From the NCBI GenBank assembly GCA_910574995.1, contig CAJTCS010000002.1, positions 186,001-250,000 of the forward strand: DNA of 64,000 nucleotides, in the 5' to 3' direction. This document shows, one piece after another, positions 17,759 through 40,620 of the stretch. The DNA comes from Oscillospiraceae bacterium (GTDB lineage: Bacteria > Bacillota > Clostridia > Oscillospirales > Acutalibacteraceae). How positions within the stretch are numbered: position 1 is the stretch's first letter; every line of letters begins with the position of its first letter. The translations under genes were made by a program, and so were the position numbers. The notes beneath the pieces are model-generated. The model was not told where the DNA came from and made no database searches. It saw only the letters and a list, made by a program, of their open reading frames with translations.

Positions 17759-17835
17759 GGGGGCATAGCTCAGCTGGTTAGAGCACCTGCCTTACAAGCA
17801 GGGGGTCATAGGTTCGAGTCCTATTGTCCCCACCA
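17759..17835 (+). tRNA. tRNA-Val (anticodon TAC)
   Basis: 77 nt with encoded CCA. Acceptor GGGGGCA pairs with TGTCCCC; the anticodon stem CCTGC/GCAGG encloses CTTACAA (anticodon TAC); the T loop is GGTTCGAGTCC. First gene of a five-tRNA cluster. Confidence 0.97.
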
Positions 17836-17867
17836 TACACATAAAGGCGACGCACTGTTTACGATTT

Positions 17868-17944
17868 GGCCCGGTAGTTCAGCTGGTTAGAACGCTAGCC
17901 TGTCACGCTAGAGGTCGACGGTTCGAGCCCGTTCCGGGTCGCCA
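17868..17944 (+). tRNA. tRNA-Asp (anticodon GTC)
   Basis: 77 nt with encoded CCA. Acceptor GGCCCGG pairs with CCGGGTC; the anticodon stem CTAGC/GCTAG encloses CTGTCAC (anticodon GTC). Confidence 0.97.
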
Positions 17945-17949
17945 TATTT

Positions 17950-18025
17950 GCCTCTGTAGCTCAGTTGGTAGAGCAGGGGACTGAAAATCCCCGTGTCATT
18001 GGTTCGATTCCGATCGGAGGCACCA
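17950..18025 (+). tRNA. tRNA-Phe (anticodon GAA)
   Basis: 76 nt with encoded CCA. Acceptor GCCTCTG pairs with CGGAGGC; the anticodon stem GGGGA/TCCCC encloses CTGAAAA (anticodon GAA). Confidence 0.97.
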
Positions 18026-18028
18026 TTT

Positions 18029-18104
18029 GCGGGCGTAGCTCATCTGGTAGAGCGCCACCTTGCCAAGGTGGAGGTAGCGAGTTCGAGCCTCGTCGTCCGC
18101 TCCA
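18029..18104 (+). tRNA. tRNA-Gly (anticodon GCC)
   Basis: 76 nt with encoded CCA. Acceptor GCGGGCG pairs with CGTCCGC; the anticodon stem CCACC/GGTGG encloses TTGCCAA (anticodon GCC). Only three bases separate it from tRNA-Phe. Confidence 0.97.
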
Positions 18105-18111
18105 AGAATGT

Positions 18112-18144
18112 GAAAAGACGCTTCTTATGCGGGAGCGTCTTTTC
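18112..18144 (+). terminator. Terminator-like hairpin inside the tRNA cluster
   Basis: GAAAAGACGCT (18112-18122) pairs with AGCGTCTTTTC (18134-18144), ending in four Ts. It separates tRNA-Gly from tRNA-Cys, so it would reduce tRNA-Cys output or act as a processing spacer. Confidence 0.65.
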
Positions 18145-18153
18145 CATAAACAA

Positions 18154-18228
18154 GGTGACATAGCCAAGTGGTAAGGCAAAGGTCTGCAAAACCTTCATTC
18201 CCCGGTTCAAATCCGGGTGTCACCTCCA
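18154..18228 (+). tRNA. tRNA-Cys (anticodon GCA)
   Basis: 75 nt with encoded CCA. Acceptor GGTGACA pairs with TGTCACC; the anticodon stem AAGGT/ACCTT encloses CTGCAAA (anticodon GCA). It lies beyond the internal hairpin. Confidence 0.97.
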
Positions 18229-27257: not shown

Positions 27258-28277
27258 ATGAGTTTTTCCATTCGAGATGAAATGCCGGACATCGTGCAGC
27301 AGTATGCCATGTACCTGCGCAATATCAAAGGCTTGTCCGCTAAAACAGTAAACGAATACTGTATGGATTTGCGTACGCTGTTCCGGTTCCTAAAATCCCA
27401 CTGGGGTCCTATTGATTGCCCTTTGGAAGAAATCAAAGTGAACGATGTAGACATGGAATTCATCCGTAAAATCAAGACCTATGACTTGTTCGAATTCATG
27501 AATTTCGTGGCGGACGAACGCAATAACATGAGTTCTACCCGTCAACGGAAGTCTTCCTCCTTGAAATCTTTTTTTAAGTACTTGACGGTGCATGAAGGCT
27601 TATTGGAAGAAAACCCGACGGAAAAGCTGACCCCTCCCAAAAAGAAAAAAGCCCTTCCCCACTTCCTTTCCCTCGAACAAAGCATCGAACTTCTGCAAGC
27701 CGTGGATGGGCCTGACCAGGAGCGGGATTTGTGTATCCTGACGCTCTTCTTAAATTGTGGGATGCGCCTGTCAGAGCTGGTGTCTATCAATATCACCGAC
27801 GTACTTTACAACAACTCGACCCTACGAATCCTAGGCAAAGGCAACAAGGAACGTATCGTATACTTAAATCAGGCATGCCTGGACGCTATTGAAAACTACC
27901 TGGCTGTGCGCCCGAAAGACGGTGTAATCGACCGGAATGCCCTGTTCCTCAGCAAACGAAAGACCCGTATTAGCCCTAAAACCGTACAGTTTATGGTTAA
28001 AAAGTATCTGGACAAGATTGGCCTCAGCGGCCCAGGCTACTCGGTACACAAACTACGCCATACAGCCGCTACACTGATGTACCGCTATGGGAATGTAGAC
28101 ATTCGGGTACTGCAGGATATATTGGGCCATGCCAACCTAGGTACCACGGAAATTTACACCCACACCTCCAGTAGCCAGATGGAACGGGCCCTCAATGCGA
28201 ATCCACTGGCACAAATCAAGGTAGAGCCTAAAACCTCAAATAGCCAGGAGAGCGAAACGGATCCAAAAGAAGAATAA
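27258..28277 (+). CDS. Tyrosine recombinase, XerC-like
   Basis: 339-residue site-specific recombinase. The N-terminal SAM-like core-binding domain is about residues 10-125; the catalytic domain has Arg in NCGMRLSEL, Lys in LGKGNKER, HKLRHTAAT (HxxR), His in LGHANLGTT and Tyr in EIYTHT. SD AGAAAGGACG precedes ATG 27258. A second recombinase (xerD) lies 1 kb away in convergent orientation, so this one may be the XerC partner for chromosome dimer resolution. It is slightly long for XerC because of a 20-residue polar tail. Confidence 0.85.
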   Translation: MSFSIRDEMPDIVQQYAMYLRNIKGLSAKTVNEYCMDLRTLFRFLKSHWGPIDCPLEEIKVNDVDMEFIRKIKTYDLFEFMNFVADERNNMSSTRQRKSSSLKSFFKYLTVHEGLLEENPTEKLTPPKKKKALPHFLSLEQSIELLQAVDGPDQERDLCILTLFLNCGMRLSELVSINITDVLYNNSTLRILGKGNKERIVYLNQACLDAIENYLAVRPKDGVIDRNALFLSKRKTRISPKTVQFMVKKYLDKIGLSGPGYSVHKLRHTAATLMYRYGNVDIRVLQDILGHANLGTTEIYTHTSSSQMERALNANPLAQIKVEPKTSNSQESETDPKEE

Positions 28278-29232: not shown

Positions 29233-30129
29233 TCATCCCAGCTTCAGCTTTGCTTTAGGGTGGCAGTCATGATAGACCTGGTTTACATGGCTGTCCAACA
29301 GTTGTACATAAACCTGGGTGGAAGAGATATCGGCGTGGCCCATCATAGTTTGGATGTCTTTGACAGAAGCGCCATTTTCCAACAGGTGCAAAGCGAAAGA
29401 GTGGCGGATAGTATGGGGGGTGATTTCCTTGGTGATACCAGCCTCTAGCGCATAGCCCTTCACAATTTTCCAGAATCCCTGGCGAGTAAGCCTGCCCCCA
29501 TTCAGATTGACAAACAGTGCGTCGCCGCTGTCAGGCCCTACAATAAGGCCGCGCATCCGATAAATATAGTCGGAAACAGCAACCACTGCCGATGGATATA
29601 CGGGGATGGAACGCACCCCCTTGCTACCTTGGCAGTATAATACCCCAGAGCGGAGGTTGATATCTTGGACGTCCAGATTGATCAACTCAGAGGCCCGGAT
29701 ACCTGTGGCATAAAGCAGTTCCAGCATAGCTTTGTCCCTGCACCCCTTAGGCTCTGTTACGTCCGGCTGAGCAAGCAACAGGTCAATCTCTTCCCCTTGC
29801 AGCACTTGGGGGAGTTTTTTTTCGGCTTTTTCTAGCTTAATGGCCTTGGCTGGGTTGTGGTCCAACAGGCCGCTTACAATAAGGAATTTATAAAAACAAC
29901 GGACAGAGGCAAGATTCCGGGAAATTGTAGTGGTAGAACGTTTTAAGTCATAGAGATGCTGTACATACGCTTGGATATCGCGCTCATCCGCCTTTAAGGG
30001 AGGCACGTCGAACCGCTGAAGAAAATCCAAAAAATACAGCGTATCACGTAAGTACGATTCCCGGGTGTTAGCAGAACTGGTTTTTTGATCGGTCAGATAG
30101 TCGCGGAACATAGAATAATAGTCATACAC
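29233..30129 (-). CDS. xerD: Tyrosine recombinase XerD
   Basis: 298-residue recombinase for chromosome dimer resolution at dif. Catalytic set: Arg in TGIRASEL, Lys in GSKGVRS, HTIRHSFA (HxxR), His in MMGHADISST and nucleophile Tyr in TQVYVQ. The start is GTG 30129 with GAAGGTG upstream. Its position just downstream of spoIIM matches the spoIIM-xerD neighbourhood of Bacillus, which favours XerD over the other recombinase in this window. Confidence 0.92.
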   Translation of the reverse strand: MYDYYSMFRDYLTDQKTSSANTRESYLRDTLYFLDFLQRFDVPPLKADERDIQAYVQHLYDLKRSTTTISRNLASVRCFYKFLIVSGLLDHNPAKAIKLEKAEKKLPQVLQGEEIDLLLAQPDVTEPKGCRDKAMLELLYATGIRASELINLDVQDINLRSGVLYCQGSKGVRSIPVYPSAVVAVSDYIYRMRGLIVGPDSGDALFVNLNGGRLTRQGFWKIVKGYALEAGITKEITPHTIRHSFALHLLENGASVKDIQTMMGHADISSTQVYVQLLDSHVNQVYHDCHPKAKLKLG

Positions 30130-30147: not shown

Positions 30148-30750
30148 TTATAAAAAAATTTCTCCATAAATCACAGAAAAAAGTGCGCCTACAAAAGCAG
30201 CCATCACTGAAAAAGAGAGGCATACCAAGAAATCACGCAAATAGCTGTGGAAATCCTGACCATCTTCTTGAGCGGTAAGGCCAGCCCGTGCCAAGCGTTT
30301 TGAGAAAGCCATAGCTTGTCCGGCAAAAAGCAACAACAGCAAAGAAAAAACAGCCGTAACAGGCGCATATAGGAACGCTGCCCGCCCCAGGCCAGGAAGC
30401 CCGTCCACAATAATAAAAGAAAGGACACCCAATCCTATTGCCATCCCTTTTACAAAAAGAAACAAAGGAACCGCGACCATACCAAAGGCAGTCATACCAA
30501 ACAGGAACAAGGCAAGGAGCCCGATCAACATATTCAACAGCAAAGTGGAAAAGCAGGAAAAAAAACCGGCTTCTGGGAAAGGGATGCCCGAAAAAACAAG
30601 CGGCAAAACATGCTGAGACTTAAAAATACCCCCAAAAACACCTGCGGCCGCTCCCCCCTGGATTCCACAGCAAAGCAGAGCCAACAAAGGAAAAAAAGAT
30701 TTCCAGAGCGGAGCCTTGCAAAAAACAGACTGCTTGCCACCAGACTTCAT
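30148..30750 (-). CDS. spoIIM: Stage II sporulation protein M
   Basis: Membrane subunit of the SpoIID-SpoIIM-SpoIIP complex that drives engulfment during sporulation. About 200 residues with five hydrophobic segments (for example near residues 15-35, 55-80, 82-105, 110-135 and 165-195). The frame is open to 30933, but that upstream part looks non-coding; AAAGGATGG supports ATG 30750, with ATG 30762 as alternative. A SigE-like promoter lies just upstream. Family assignment rests on topology, length and the adjacent xerD. Confidence 0.82.
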   Translation of the reverse strand: MKSGGKQSVFCKAPLWKSFFPLLALLCCGIQGGAAAGVFGGIFKSQHVLPLVFSGIPFPEAGFFSCFSTLLLNMLIGLLALFLFGMTAFGMVAVPLFLFVKGMAIGLGVLSFIIVDGLPGLGRAAFLYAPVTAVFSLLLLLFAGQAMAFSKRLARAGLTAQEDGQDFHSYLRDFLVCLSFSVMAAFVGALFSVIYGEIFL

Positions 30751-30777: not shown

Positions 30778-30804
30778 ATAATATGCCTCATTGCATTCAT
30801 ATGA
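30778..30804 (-). promoter_or_regulatory. Candidate SigE promoter of spoIIM
   Basis: On the minus strand, TCATATG (30804-30798) and CATATTAT (30785-30778), 12 bases apart. This is close to the Bacillus SigE consensus, though the spacer is one or two bases short. The predicted start is near 30771, just before the SD. Confidence 0.4.
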
Positions 30805-30865
30805 AAAACCAAGAGCGTCTATGCGGGGCCCTACATAATATAACTTTTTTGGGAGGCCTATCTGC

Positions 30866-31109
30866 AACCCAGAGGTTCCCTCTATACAAAGTATACACGC
30901 AACAGGACCTCTTTTTATACATCCTGGACGCAAAGCGCGATGGTTTGCGTCCGAAAAGTCGCAACCACAAGATGCAGCTGTGCGAAACGCCCTGTATCCA
31001 CATATAGCGTTTTTGTCGGCAAATCAGACCGTTTTATCCGTTTACCATTCCACATCTCTCCCCCGTTCTATGTGAAATAGCAGAGGGGATTGATGGAATA
31101 TCTGGGTTC
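30866..31109 (-). ncRNA. Candidate structured non-coding RNA (about 244 nt) upstream of spoIIM
   Basis: A SigA promoter would start transcription at about 31109, directly at the arm AACCCAGA (31108-31101), which pairs with TCTGGGTT (30873-30866) at the far end. A second pairing, CCCTCT (31087-31082) with AGAGGG (30883-30878), continues the closing helix. Inside are several hairpins: AUUUCACAU/AUGUGGAAU, AAACGC/GCGUUU, GGACGCAAA/UUUGCGUCC (30952-30926), CAGGA/UCCUG and UAUAC/GUAUA. No credible reading frame was seen. No T-run follows the 3' arm on this strand, so it could instead be a long leader of spoIIM. Family unknown to me; raiA and 6S RNAs are worth testing. Confidence 0.6.
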
Positions 31110-31115
31110 TTTTCT

Positions 31116-31144
31116 ACTATAAACCATTTTCCGAGAATTTTCAA
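31116..31144 (-). promoter_or_regulatory. SigA promoter of the candidate RNA
   Basis: Minus strand: TTGAAA (31144-31139), 17-bp spacer, TATAGT (31121-31116). Seven bases after the -10 the closing-stem arm begins. Confidence 0.75.
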
Positions 31145-31270
31145 GAGGTAAAATTGAATATTTTTGCTTTTTATGCGAAAACAGCCAATTTTATGTGTTT
31201 TGCATTATGTAAACCGATGCATATTCATGGCCTGGTTTTATGTAATGAAACCCCTCTTCGAATATGCATA
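31145..31270. other. AT-rich gap with repeated TTATGT words
   Basis: No gene. The plus strand carries TTATGT at 31191, 31205 and 31238, just upstream of the candidate RNA promoter. These could be operator half-sites; the spacing is irregular (14 and 33 bases), so evidence is weak. Confidence 0.35.
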
Positions 31271-31301
31271 AAAATACACACGGTTTAACCGTGTGTATTT
31301 T
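31271..31301. terminator. Terminator after the TIGR04086 gene
   Basis: AAAATACACACGGTT (31271-31285) and AACCGTGTGTATTTT (31287-31301) form a perfect 15-bp inverted repeat ending in Ts on both strands. It closes the queA-tgt-yajC-TIGR04086 transcript. Confidence 0.85.
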
Positions 31302-34658: not shown

Positions 34659-34662
34659 ATGA

Positions 34663-34826
34663 AGTGAATAGAGGCGCGGCTTTCAAAAGTAGTGAGATCG
34701 AGGTTGCCAAAACTGAGGAAGTCTTATGAAAGGGTAAGCTGCCGAAGGGGAAATTTGGCAAATCGCCCCTGGTTGCAGCGGCGAACAGCTTTGCGACTGT
34801 CATCGATCCTGATGGAGTGCTATTTG
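34663..34826 (+). promoter_or_regulatory. Lysine riboswitch (L box)
   Basis: Conserved L-box words appear in order: AGAGGCGCGG (34670-34679), AGTAGTGAG, ATGAAAGGGTAAGC, TGCCGAAGGGG (34740-34750), CCCCTGGTTGC, GCGACTGTCATCGATCC and TGATGGAGTGCTAT. GTGAATAG and CTATTTG close helix P1. It is followed by an intrinsic terminator, so lysine binding should stop transcription of the downstream mazG-like/asd/dapA/dapB/ACT genes. Confidence 0.93.
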
Positions 34827-34865
34827 TTTCCTTTTTATGCAGCATTTCTATTATAGGAGATTGGC

Positions 34866-40345: not shown

Positions 40346-40620
40346 CCCCCCGCACAGGAAAAACCTGTACAGAGGGCGAACATCGTCGCGGTACCACCTC
40401 AGTTTACCGAAGCCTTTGCAGCCTTCGGCCTCATCAGGCACAAACATGCCCTTGCAGTGTAACGCCTGCCATACGGCTCCCCCTACTTGAATGGATTGGT
40501 TCAAGGAAGCGGCTCAGGAGGGTATTTTCAGCTATTGCCATGCGCTTGCTTACACCGACCGCAAGCTCTCTTTGCCATATAAAGCAACACTTACTTAGCT
40601 CCATCATTGCCATTGCATGT
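40346..40620 (-). promoter_or_regulatory. Tyrosine-specific T-box riboswitch
   Basis: On the minus strand the T-box sequence GGTGGTACCGCG lies at 40398-40387. Upstream are the Stem I landmarks AAGTAA, AGAGAG (40573-40568) and the GGTCGGTGTAA loop, then GAAAA followed by the specifier UAC (Tyr) at 40524-40522. The terminator is GCCCTCTGTACAGG (40378-40365) paired with CCTGTGCGGGGGGC (40359-40346). Uncharged tRNA-Tyr should allow read-through into the GNAT and tyrS. Confidence 0.93.

Follow-up and report, generated by a model that had tools for sequence, protein, structure and literature searches.

What does the SigA-type promoter upstream of a spoIIM-like gene transcribe in this genome? In the window (the whole 64,000-nt stretch of DNA analysed here), the promoter faces a non-coding stretch on the minus strand whose two ends are complementary, and spoIIM and xerD follow on the same strand. 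The original prediction took this layout for a discrete structured RNA and named a long spoIIM leader as the alternative. Comparison with relatives favors the alternative: with a probability of roughly 0.6, the stretch serves a vegetative spoIIM-xerD transcript as its leader and is not a discrete structured non-coding RNA.

A folded stretch behind a SigA-type promoter

The features at issue, in the direction of transcription, are as follows.

31271..31301, minus strand: predicted terminator of the upstream TIGR04086/yajC genes (15-bp stem, 100% complementary, T-rich tail)
31144-31116, minus strand: SigA-type promoter TTGAAA-17-TATAGT, 10/12 consensus matches
30855..31109, minus strand: candidate RNA, read here as the 5′ portion of a long non-coding leader (fold z -3.67)
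31108-31101, minus strand: 5′ arm AACCCAGA of the end-pairing stem, not clearly common to relatives
30968..31007, minus strand: conserved motif pair CTATATGT ... CATCTTG (consensus C.A.AT.T ... AT.TTG), without covariation
30952-30944 / 30934-30926, minus strand: 9-bp hairpin GGACGCAAA/TTTGCGTCC
30905..30919, minus strand: TATAAAAAGAGGTCC, a motif seen by eye in part of the relatives as TATAAAGTnnGGTCC
30873-30866, minus strand: 3′ arm TCTGGGTT of the end-pairing stem, the perfect complement of AACCCAGA
30864..30877, minus strand: 3′ motif AACCTCTGGGTTGC, in relatives AAC-N-GTTnC

The promoter described in the original prediction (TTGAAA, 17 bp, TATAGT) is present, and every other element named there also lies where it was placed on the minus strand, with the sole exception of the pairing between CCCTCT and AGAGGG. 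Upstream of it, the hairpin at 31271..31301 is likely the terminator of the TIGR04086/yajC genes, and a hairpin resembling it was judged by eye to occur in many relatives. The ends of the stretch are perfectly complementary over 8 bp, as had been claimed. Among 5000 dinucleotide shuffles, 0.58% pair the first 20 nt with the last 40 nt perfectly over 8 bp, and 3.0% do so when any partner past nt 40 is allowed. The 9-bp interior stem (30952-30926) is likewise borne out. The proposed inward extension of the closing helix is not, as CCCTCT (31087-31082) and AGAGGG (30883-30878) are unpaired with each other in the minimum-energy fold and CCCTCT sits inside a local hairpin there.

The fold of the window genome exceeds chance. 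The 255-nt stretch 31109-30855 folds at -88.8 kcal/mol, with none of 200 shuffles equally good, and a near-identical span compared with 100 shuffles gives a folding z of -4.47.

Relatives of the locus and sequence conservation

A spoIIM pattern search of the contigs of a wider set of genomes returned 147 matches, none of which was confirmed as a relative, and xerD was therefore used to find relatives. The window genus is Neglectibacter/Acutalibacter-like and is represented by 29 genomes, with spoIIM found in 22. The comparison covers 24 stretches of 100-293 nt (100 nt in L047, 213 nt in L087, 123-293 nt in the remainder); the ends of those in L043, L087 and L047 were marked by hand, and L047 and L087 were assigned to other genera from xerD identity. 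At the 13 loci where the TIGR04086 gene was also matched, its distance to spoIIM is 553-656 nt.

The TATAGT -10 element is found at 21 of the 22 spoIIM loci of the window genus, and an AAC-N-GTT...C motif follows it by 107-277 nt, also at 21 of 22; L004, the locus missing from both counts, is cut by a contig end. The spacer within AAC-N-GTT is 4 in most loci and 5 or 6 in a few, and the patterns for both elements were devised after inspecting the loci. In other genera the promoter directly precedes a proC or a spoIIM-like frame, as judged by eye.

Over 171 pairs from 19 species, mean identity per aligned position is 0.77 in the promoter and 0.76 in the 74 nt upstream of it; the 3′ motif has 0.70, the 60 nt that follow 0.60 (shuffled 0.563), and fourfold sites in xerD are down to 0.38. 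For the RNA body, identity is 0.68 of the shorter sequence vs 0.659 with one partner shuffled, a baseline drawn from 60 pairs. At such near-saturated divergence a few motifs in the leader are kept, in 16 and 21 species, and part of the leader is therefore probably under selection.

Search for known RNA families and coding potential

No Rfam 15 family matches the stretch at gathering scores, and lax thresholds yield only matches far below those scores. Among the other spoIIM loci, 19 of 21 were searched up to E 1, and the sole match (E 0.76) lies outside the stretch; at 20 loci of other genera a tRNA is the only match at gathering scores. The earlier failure to recognize RNase P, SRP, tmRNA, a T-box or a riboswitch by sight thus agrees with the covariance models, in the window and in relatives alike. 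Among the families proposed for comparison was 6S RNA (RF00013), which the stretch resembles in having its own promoter and mutually pairing ends. It differs in that no 6S match falls on the stretch and that the 6S RNA of this genome lies elsewhere, at G000:C5:91046-91249; a 6S identity is rejected, as 6S sits at another location in 26 of the 29 genomes of the genus, this one included. A DNA similarity search with the stretch matched its own genome alone among 60 genomes. Elsewhere in the window, Rfam identifies a T-box leader (40369-40616, minus strand), a lysine riboswitch (34661-34830, plus strand) and five tRNAs (17759-18225, plus strand).

Stop-to-stop open frames overlap at least 150 nt of the stretch in 16 of 24 cases, and often two or three frames of one stretch do so. 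Among these frames BLASTP gives 26 matches at E of 0.1 or lower; the frames involved differ, as expected from DNA similarity among L003, L005 and L006, and no single common reading frame was found in the stretch across the window genus. A short encoded protein is not adopted as an explanation on account of these differing frames; in a single species one is possible.

Comparative test of a shared structure

Folding z falls below -2 in 10 of the 24 stretches (mean -1.71), compared with none of 18 xerD coding controls (mean -0.31). The antisense strands reach a mean of -1.31, also with 10 of 24 below -2, and 15 stretches from the 5′ part of proC have a mean of -0.96 with three below -2. The low values in 10 stretches count against a passive leader, which would not need them, although the antisense strands give the same count.

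Does this folding propensity reflect a common architecture? When 15 of the 24 stretches are aligned by sequence, and hence poorly, RNAalifold returns no consensus pairs; the alignments used throughout are sequence-based. In six of eight overlapping subgroup alignments the alifold energy lies below that of column shuffles (z -2.05 to -4.35), and in the remaining two it does not (z -0.51 and -0.69). Structure within individual clades is thus possible.

The best-conserved internal element, and one that by eye resembles a helix, is the motif pair C.A.AT.T ... AT.TTG, which spans a near-constant distance (46-49 nt per segment in the 17 species anchored by hand). Across 16 species, 82.5% of cells are paired vs 83.9% when partners are shuffled among species, and pairing is equal or better in 92% of 10,000 permutations of the partners; slid partners pair in 17-56% of cells. 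Left out of this test were L011, L012, L014, L018-L020, L047 and L087, of which L012 was anchored with a poor match and the other seven lacked a confident anchor. Because the two arms from one species pair no better than arms taken from different species, the helix suggested by eye between C.A.AT and AT.TTG is rejected; the pair is conserved as sequence.

The closing stem fares little better as a shared feature. When each 5′ end is paired with the 3′ ends of all 21 species, the window's own duplex ranks first and those of L013 and L017 second; over all species, the advantage of own over crossed duplexes is not clear (p 0.067), which leaves a common closing stem unsupported. In L007, L008, L010 and L013 the ends pair as ACAGG/CCTGT.

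The original prediction had made its RNA depend on covariation among relatives, and that covariation is largely lacking. A discrete, functional, fast-evolving structured RNA, transcribed from the SigA promoter and with a 3′ end formed near 30860 in some unrecognised way or by a Rho-type mechanism, is thus unlikely. Such an RNA would account for the strong fold and rare end pairing in the window, for the ACAGG/CCTGT ends and for the signal in six of the eight subgroups, and a promoter of its own is present as judged from sequence. Against it stand the absence of consensus pairs, a conserved inverted repeat that does not covary, a structure signal confined to subgroup alignments, a closing duplex without a clear advantage over cross-species pairing, and a length that varies from 100 to 293 nt. 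Nor does a terminator define a 3′ end: the original prediction noted that no T-run follows the 3′ arm, and the window indeed has no terminator-like site anywhere from the -10 box to spoIIM, with weak ones of 5-7 bp in 5 of 21 species.

The stretch as probable leader of a spoIIM-xerD operon

Downstream of the stretch lie the following features.

30797..30824, minus strand: putative SigE promoter of spoIIM (GCATAG ... TCATATGA), from a loose pattern
30148..30750, minus strand: spoIIM-like gene (TIGR02831, E 3.8e-6, 26.9 bits, below the curated cut-off of 100.2)
29233..30129, minus strand: xerD-like tyrosine recombinase gene, starting 18 nt past spoIIM

The best model for the xerD-like protein is TIGR02225 XerD at 299.6 bits (cut-off 329.6, unreached) vs 250.9 for XerC, and the protein exceeds the cut-off of the general tyrosine recombinase model PRK00283. 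Roughly 1 kb past xerD, in the opposite orientation, is a second tyrosine recombinase gene (27258-28277, plus strand); its best model is XerC, at 215.6 bits and below the cut-off.

The promoter, the stretch and both genes share a single strand that is terminator-free between them, and the long spoIIM leader that had been named as the alternative fits best, with no terminator in the way and xerD only 18 nt past spoIIM. In the scheme that this suggests, SigA polymerase would start near 31109 and transcribe through the leader into spoIIM and xerD, and this transcript would supply XerD to growing cells. A second promoter inside the leader, of the SigE type, would drive spoIIM in the mother cell. 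The fold of the window, which is stable though without a shared architecture, may spare the vegetative message a wasteful translation of SpoIIM. The leader reading is based on the conservation of promoter and boxes (see below), gene order, and the terminator, covariation and Rfam results; from these we infer the transcript and its length, the SigE promoter and any regulation.

Long structured 5′ leaders of operons, of which T-box and riboswitch leaders are regulated examples, offer the closest comparison. The stretch is like them in its SigA promoter, its folded non-coding sequence and the same-strand operon that follows with no terminator between. It differs in being silent to Rfam, and so without a known sensor domain, in having no architecture common to different species, and in having no attenuator hairpin in the window.

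Several observations bear on which gene the leader serves. The original prediction found the sporulation neighborhood suggestive, and the stretch does adjoin spoIIM; the adjacency may nevertheless be incidental, because in L043 and L087 the promoter and stretch lead straight to xerD, without spoIIM. The same arrangement as in L043, with promoter and leader kept before xerD, is seen in G017, a genome 81% complete in which spoIIM is not matched. Weak promoter-like sites are present near both genes, one at the spoIIM-xerD junction (30136-30107, 9/12) and two overlapping ones before spoIIM (30807-30778), and xerD therefore might not depend on the SigA promoter here. In the library of papers searched, none treats spoIIM and xerD together.

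The SigE-like pattern, a loose one built on a consensus that we take to be that of SigE, occurs downstream of the 3′ motif at 21 of 21 loci. Conceivably, AAC-N4-GTT and C.A.AT ... AT.TTG are protein-binding DNA sites, with AAC-N4-GTT serving the sporulation promoter of spoIIM. At 15 of 21 loci, 49-55 nt separate the 3′ motif from the SigE-like -35 element downstream of it (a choice was made where there were several matches), and the conservation of the motif pair as sequence, without covariation, is what such sites would show. This explanation is quite unlikely, however, since the distance is 23-47, 62 or 88 nt at the other six loci, the motif pair sits some 100 nt into the stretch, distant from the SigE promoter, and L043 retains the 3′ motif despite the loss of spoIIM, while in L087 just GGTTTC..ATAAT is left of it and AAC is gone. 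That the stretch is an inert spacer, its fold and end pairing in the window meaningless, would suit an RNA-body identity close to the shuffled baseline and a stem not clearly shared, but is very improbable given motifs conserved in 16 and 21 species and a fold that no shuffle matched.

Possible descent of the leader from proC

If the stretch is a leader, its position invites the question of its origin. In L046, L048 and L049, which probably correspond to the three genomes of a neighboring genus, g158, the promoter runs straight into proC (pyrroline-5-carboxylate reductase) and the gene order is proC-spoIIM-xerD. A motif search places a proC frame upstream of xerD in at least 15 of the 60 loci L046-L105. 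The operon of the window genus lacks proC, the leader occupies its place, and proC is found elsewhere in 27 of the 29 genomes; in the four of these that were read, the protein is 31-37% identical to those of L046, L048 and L049. It is possible that a distant copy elsewhere replaced proC in the window genus by non-orthologous displacement. On the leader reading, the promoter is an old one that serves proC-spoIIM-xerD in related genera, and the leader that now stands in the place of proC is perhaps a remnant of its 5′ half.

Sequence similarity to proC is weak. When a profile of 22 leaders was searched against 59 loci of other genera, the best match was the 5′ half of proC in L048, in the collinear place (E 5.9e-5, mostly from one motif); proC of L046 came second at E 0.26, barely ahead of the third match at 0.36, and proC of L049 gave no match. 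Among 500 dinucleotide shuffles, none reaches the L048 score and 1 reaches that of L046; among 500 synonymous shuffles, 1 and 9 do, respectively. Mean z in pairwise comparisons is 1.95 for the 5′ half of L048, 0.16 for its middle and 0.44 for its reverse, with 1.08 for L046 and 0.12 for L049. Once the last 50 nt are removed, L048 has a mean z of 0.82, with controls at 0.25 and 0.57 (the latter a reversed sequence). By eye, L048 also has the C.A.AT.T / AT.TTG bases at equal spacing.

The four proC genes read from the window genus do not match the leader profile. Among 398 genomes, a search for closer proC-bearing ones gave just the three, all of one genus, and none further; a first sample of 120 genomes, at a laxer E-value, yielded three others at 47-48% identity. 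Overall, the leader and the proC of L046, L048 and L049 are alike in promoter and position, with weak collinear similarity in L048, and differ in that the stretches of the window genus have no single common reading frame and that a distant proC lies elsewhere. Homology of the leader to the 5′ half of proC is, from these comparisons, somewhat likely. To our knowledge, it would be unusual for a lost enzyme gene to live on, in a new use, as a non-coding leader.

Oriented boxes ahead of the promoter

Upstream of the promoter is a further feature.

31191..31245, minus strand: three ACATAA boxes (31243-31238, 31210-31205 and 31196-31191; spacings 33 and 14)

This tandem arrangement occurs at one place in the genome, here, and nowhere in the control. 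Boxes were counted at 77 of 80 named xerD loci (L026-L105), about 21 of the 80 being apparently of the window genus and three having less than 1.2 kb upstream. Upstream of the xerD operon, TTTACATAA-type boxes number 125 in the direction of the operon vs one in the opposite direction (189,614 bases), and downstream there are two on both strands (179,925 bases). At least one such box is present at 64 of the 77 loci and none at 13, with two boxes within 60 nt at 33 loci. Certain spacings between neighboring boxes recur: among 56, 25 are 14 nt, nine are 33 nt and eight are 20 nt.

The boxes track the start of the operon rather than xerD itself. They lie 449-509 nt upstream of xerD where spoIIM is missing (L087, L043), 971-1189 nt at loci of the same genus with spoIIM, and 1609-1961 nt at those proC loci that have a box, 14 of 15. 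The promoter with its oriented boxes is better conserved than the leader RNA.

On the opposite strand the boxes read TTATGT(AAA), like an arm of Bacillus dif. The right arm of dif is the one that we take to be XerD's. In PMC3025954 the right arm of B. subtilis dif is given as ACTTCCTAGAATATATATTATGTAAACT, and the boxes, which read TTATGTAAA on the other strand, are identical to part of it. Unlike dif, they are half sites repeated directly in tandem, and the other arm is missing. No dif-like site within three mismatches of the consensus used was found in the 29 genomes, nor was the dif of the window genome itself located.

Similar boxes also lie elsewhere in some genomes. In the small genome G004 (L157-L166) there is a recurring dispersed repeat with GTTTACATAATTCA, to which most of the ten box-like sites inspected belong. 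In G009 (L153), a cluster of TTATGTAAA-like boxes lies upstream of a dnaE-like gene, after the end of a whiA-like gene, both genes being named by eye. The box is therefore not exclusive to xerD, which, like the lack of a dif-like site, speaks against these boxes being bound by XerD.

Implications

An RNA candidate that is convincing in a single genome, with its promoter, pairing ends and strong fold, fails once relatives are compared, and the better-conserved feature of the locus is a promoter with oriented, dif-like boxes before xerD in many genera. Autoregulation of XerD through these boxes is possible, given their likeness to a dif arm. A fuller scenario can be drawn, though it is highly doubtful as a whole: after the displacement of proC by a distant copy, the promoter and the 5′ half of the gene would have stayed behind as the folded leader of the XerD message, and XerD, bound to a dif-like array of half sites in this promoter, would regulate its own supply throughout the order. 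Two reports describe B. subtilis XerD as unloading SMC at the terminus (PMC12322038, PMC13342612). If the boxes bind XerD, the recombinase that acts on chromosome dimers would regulate its own operon.
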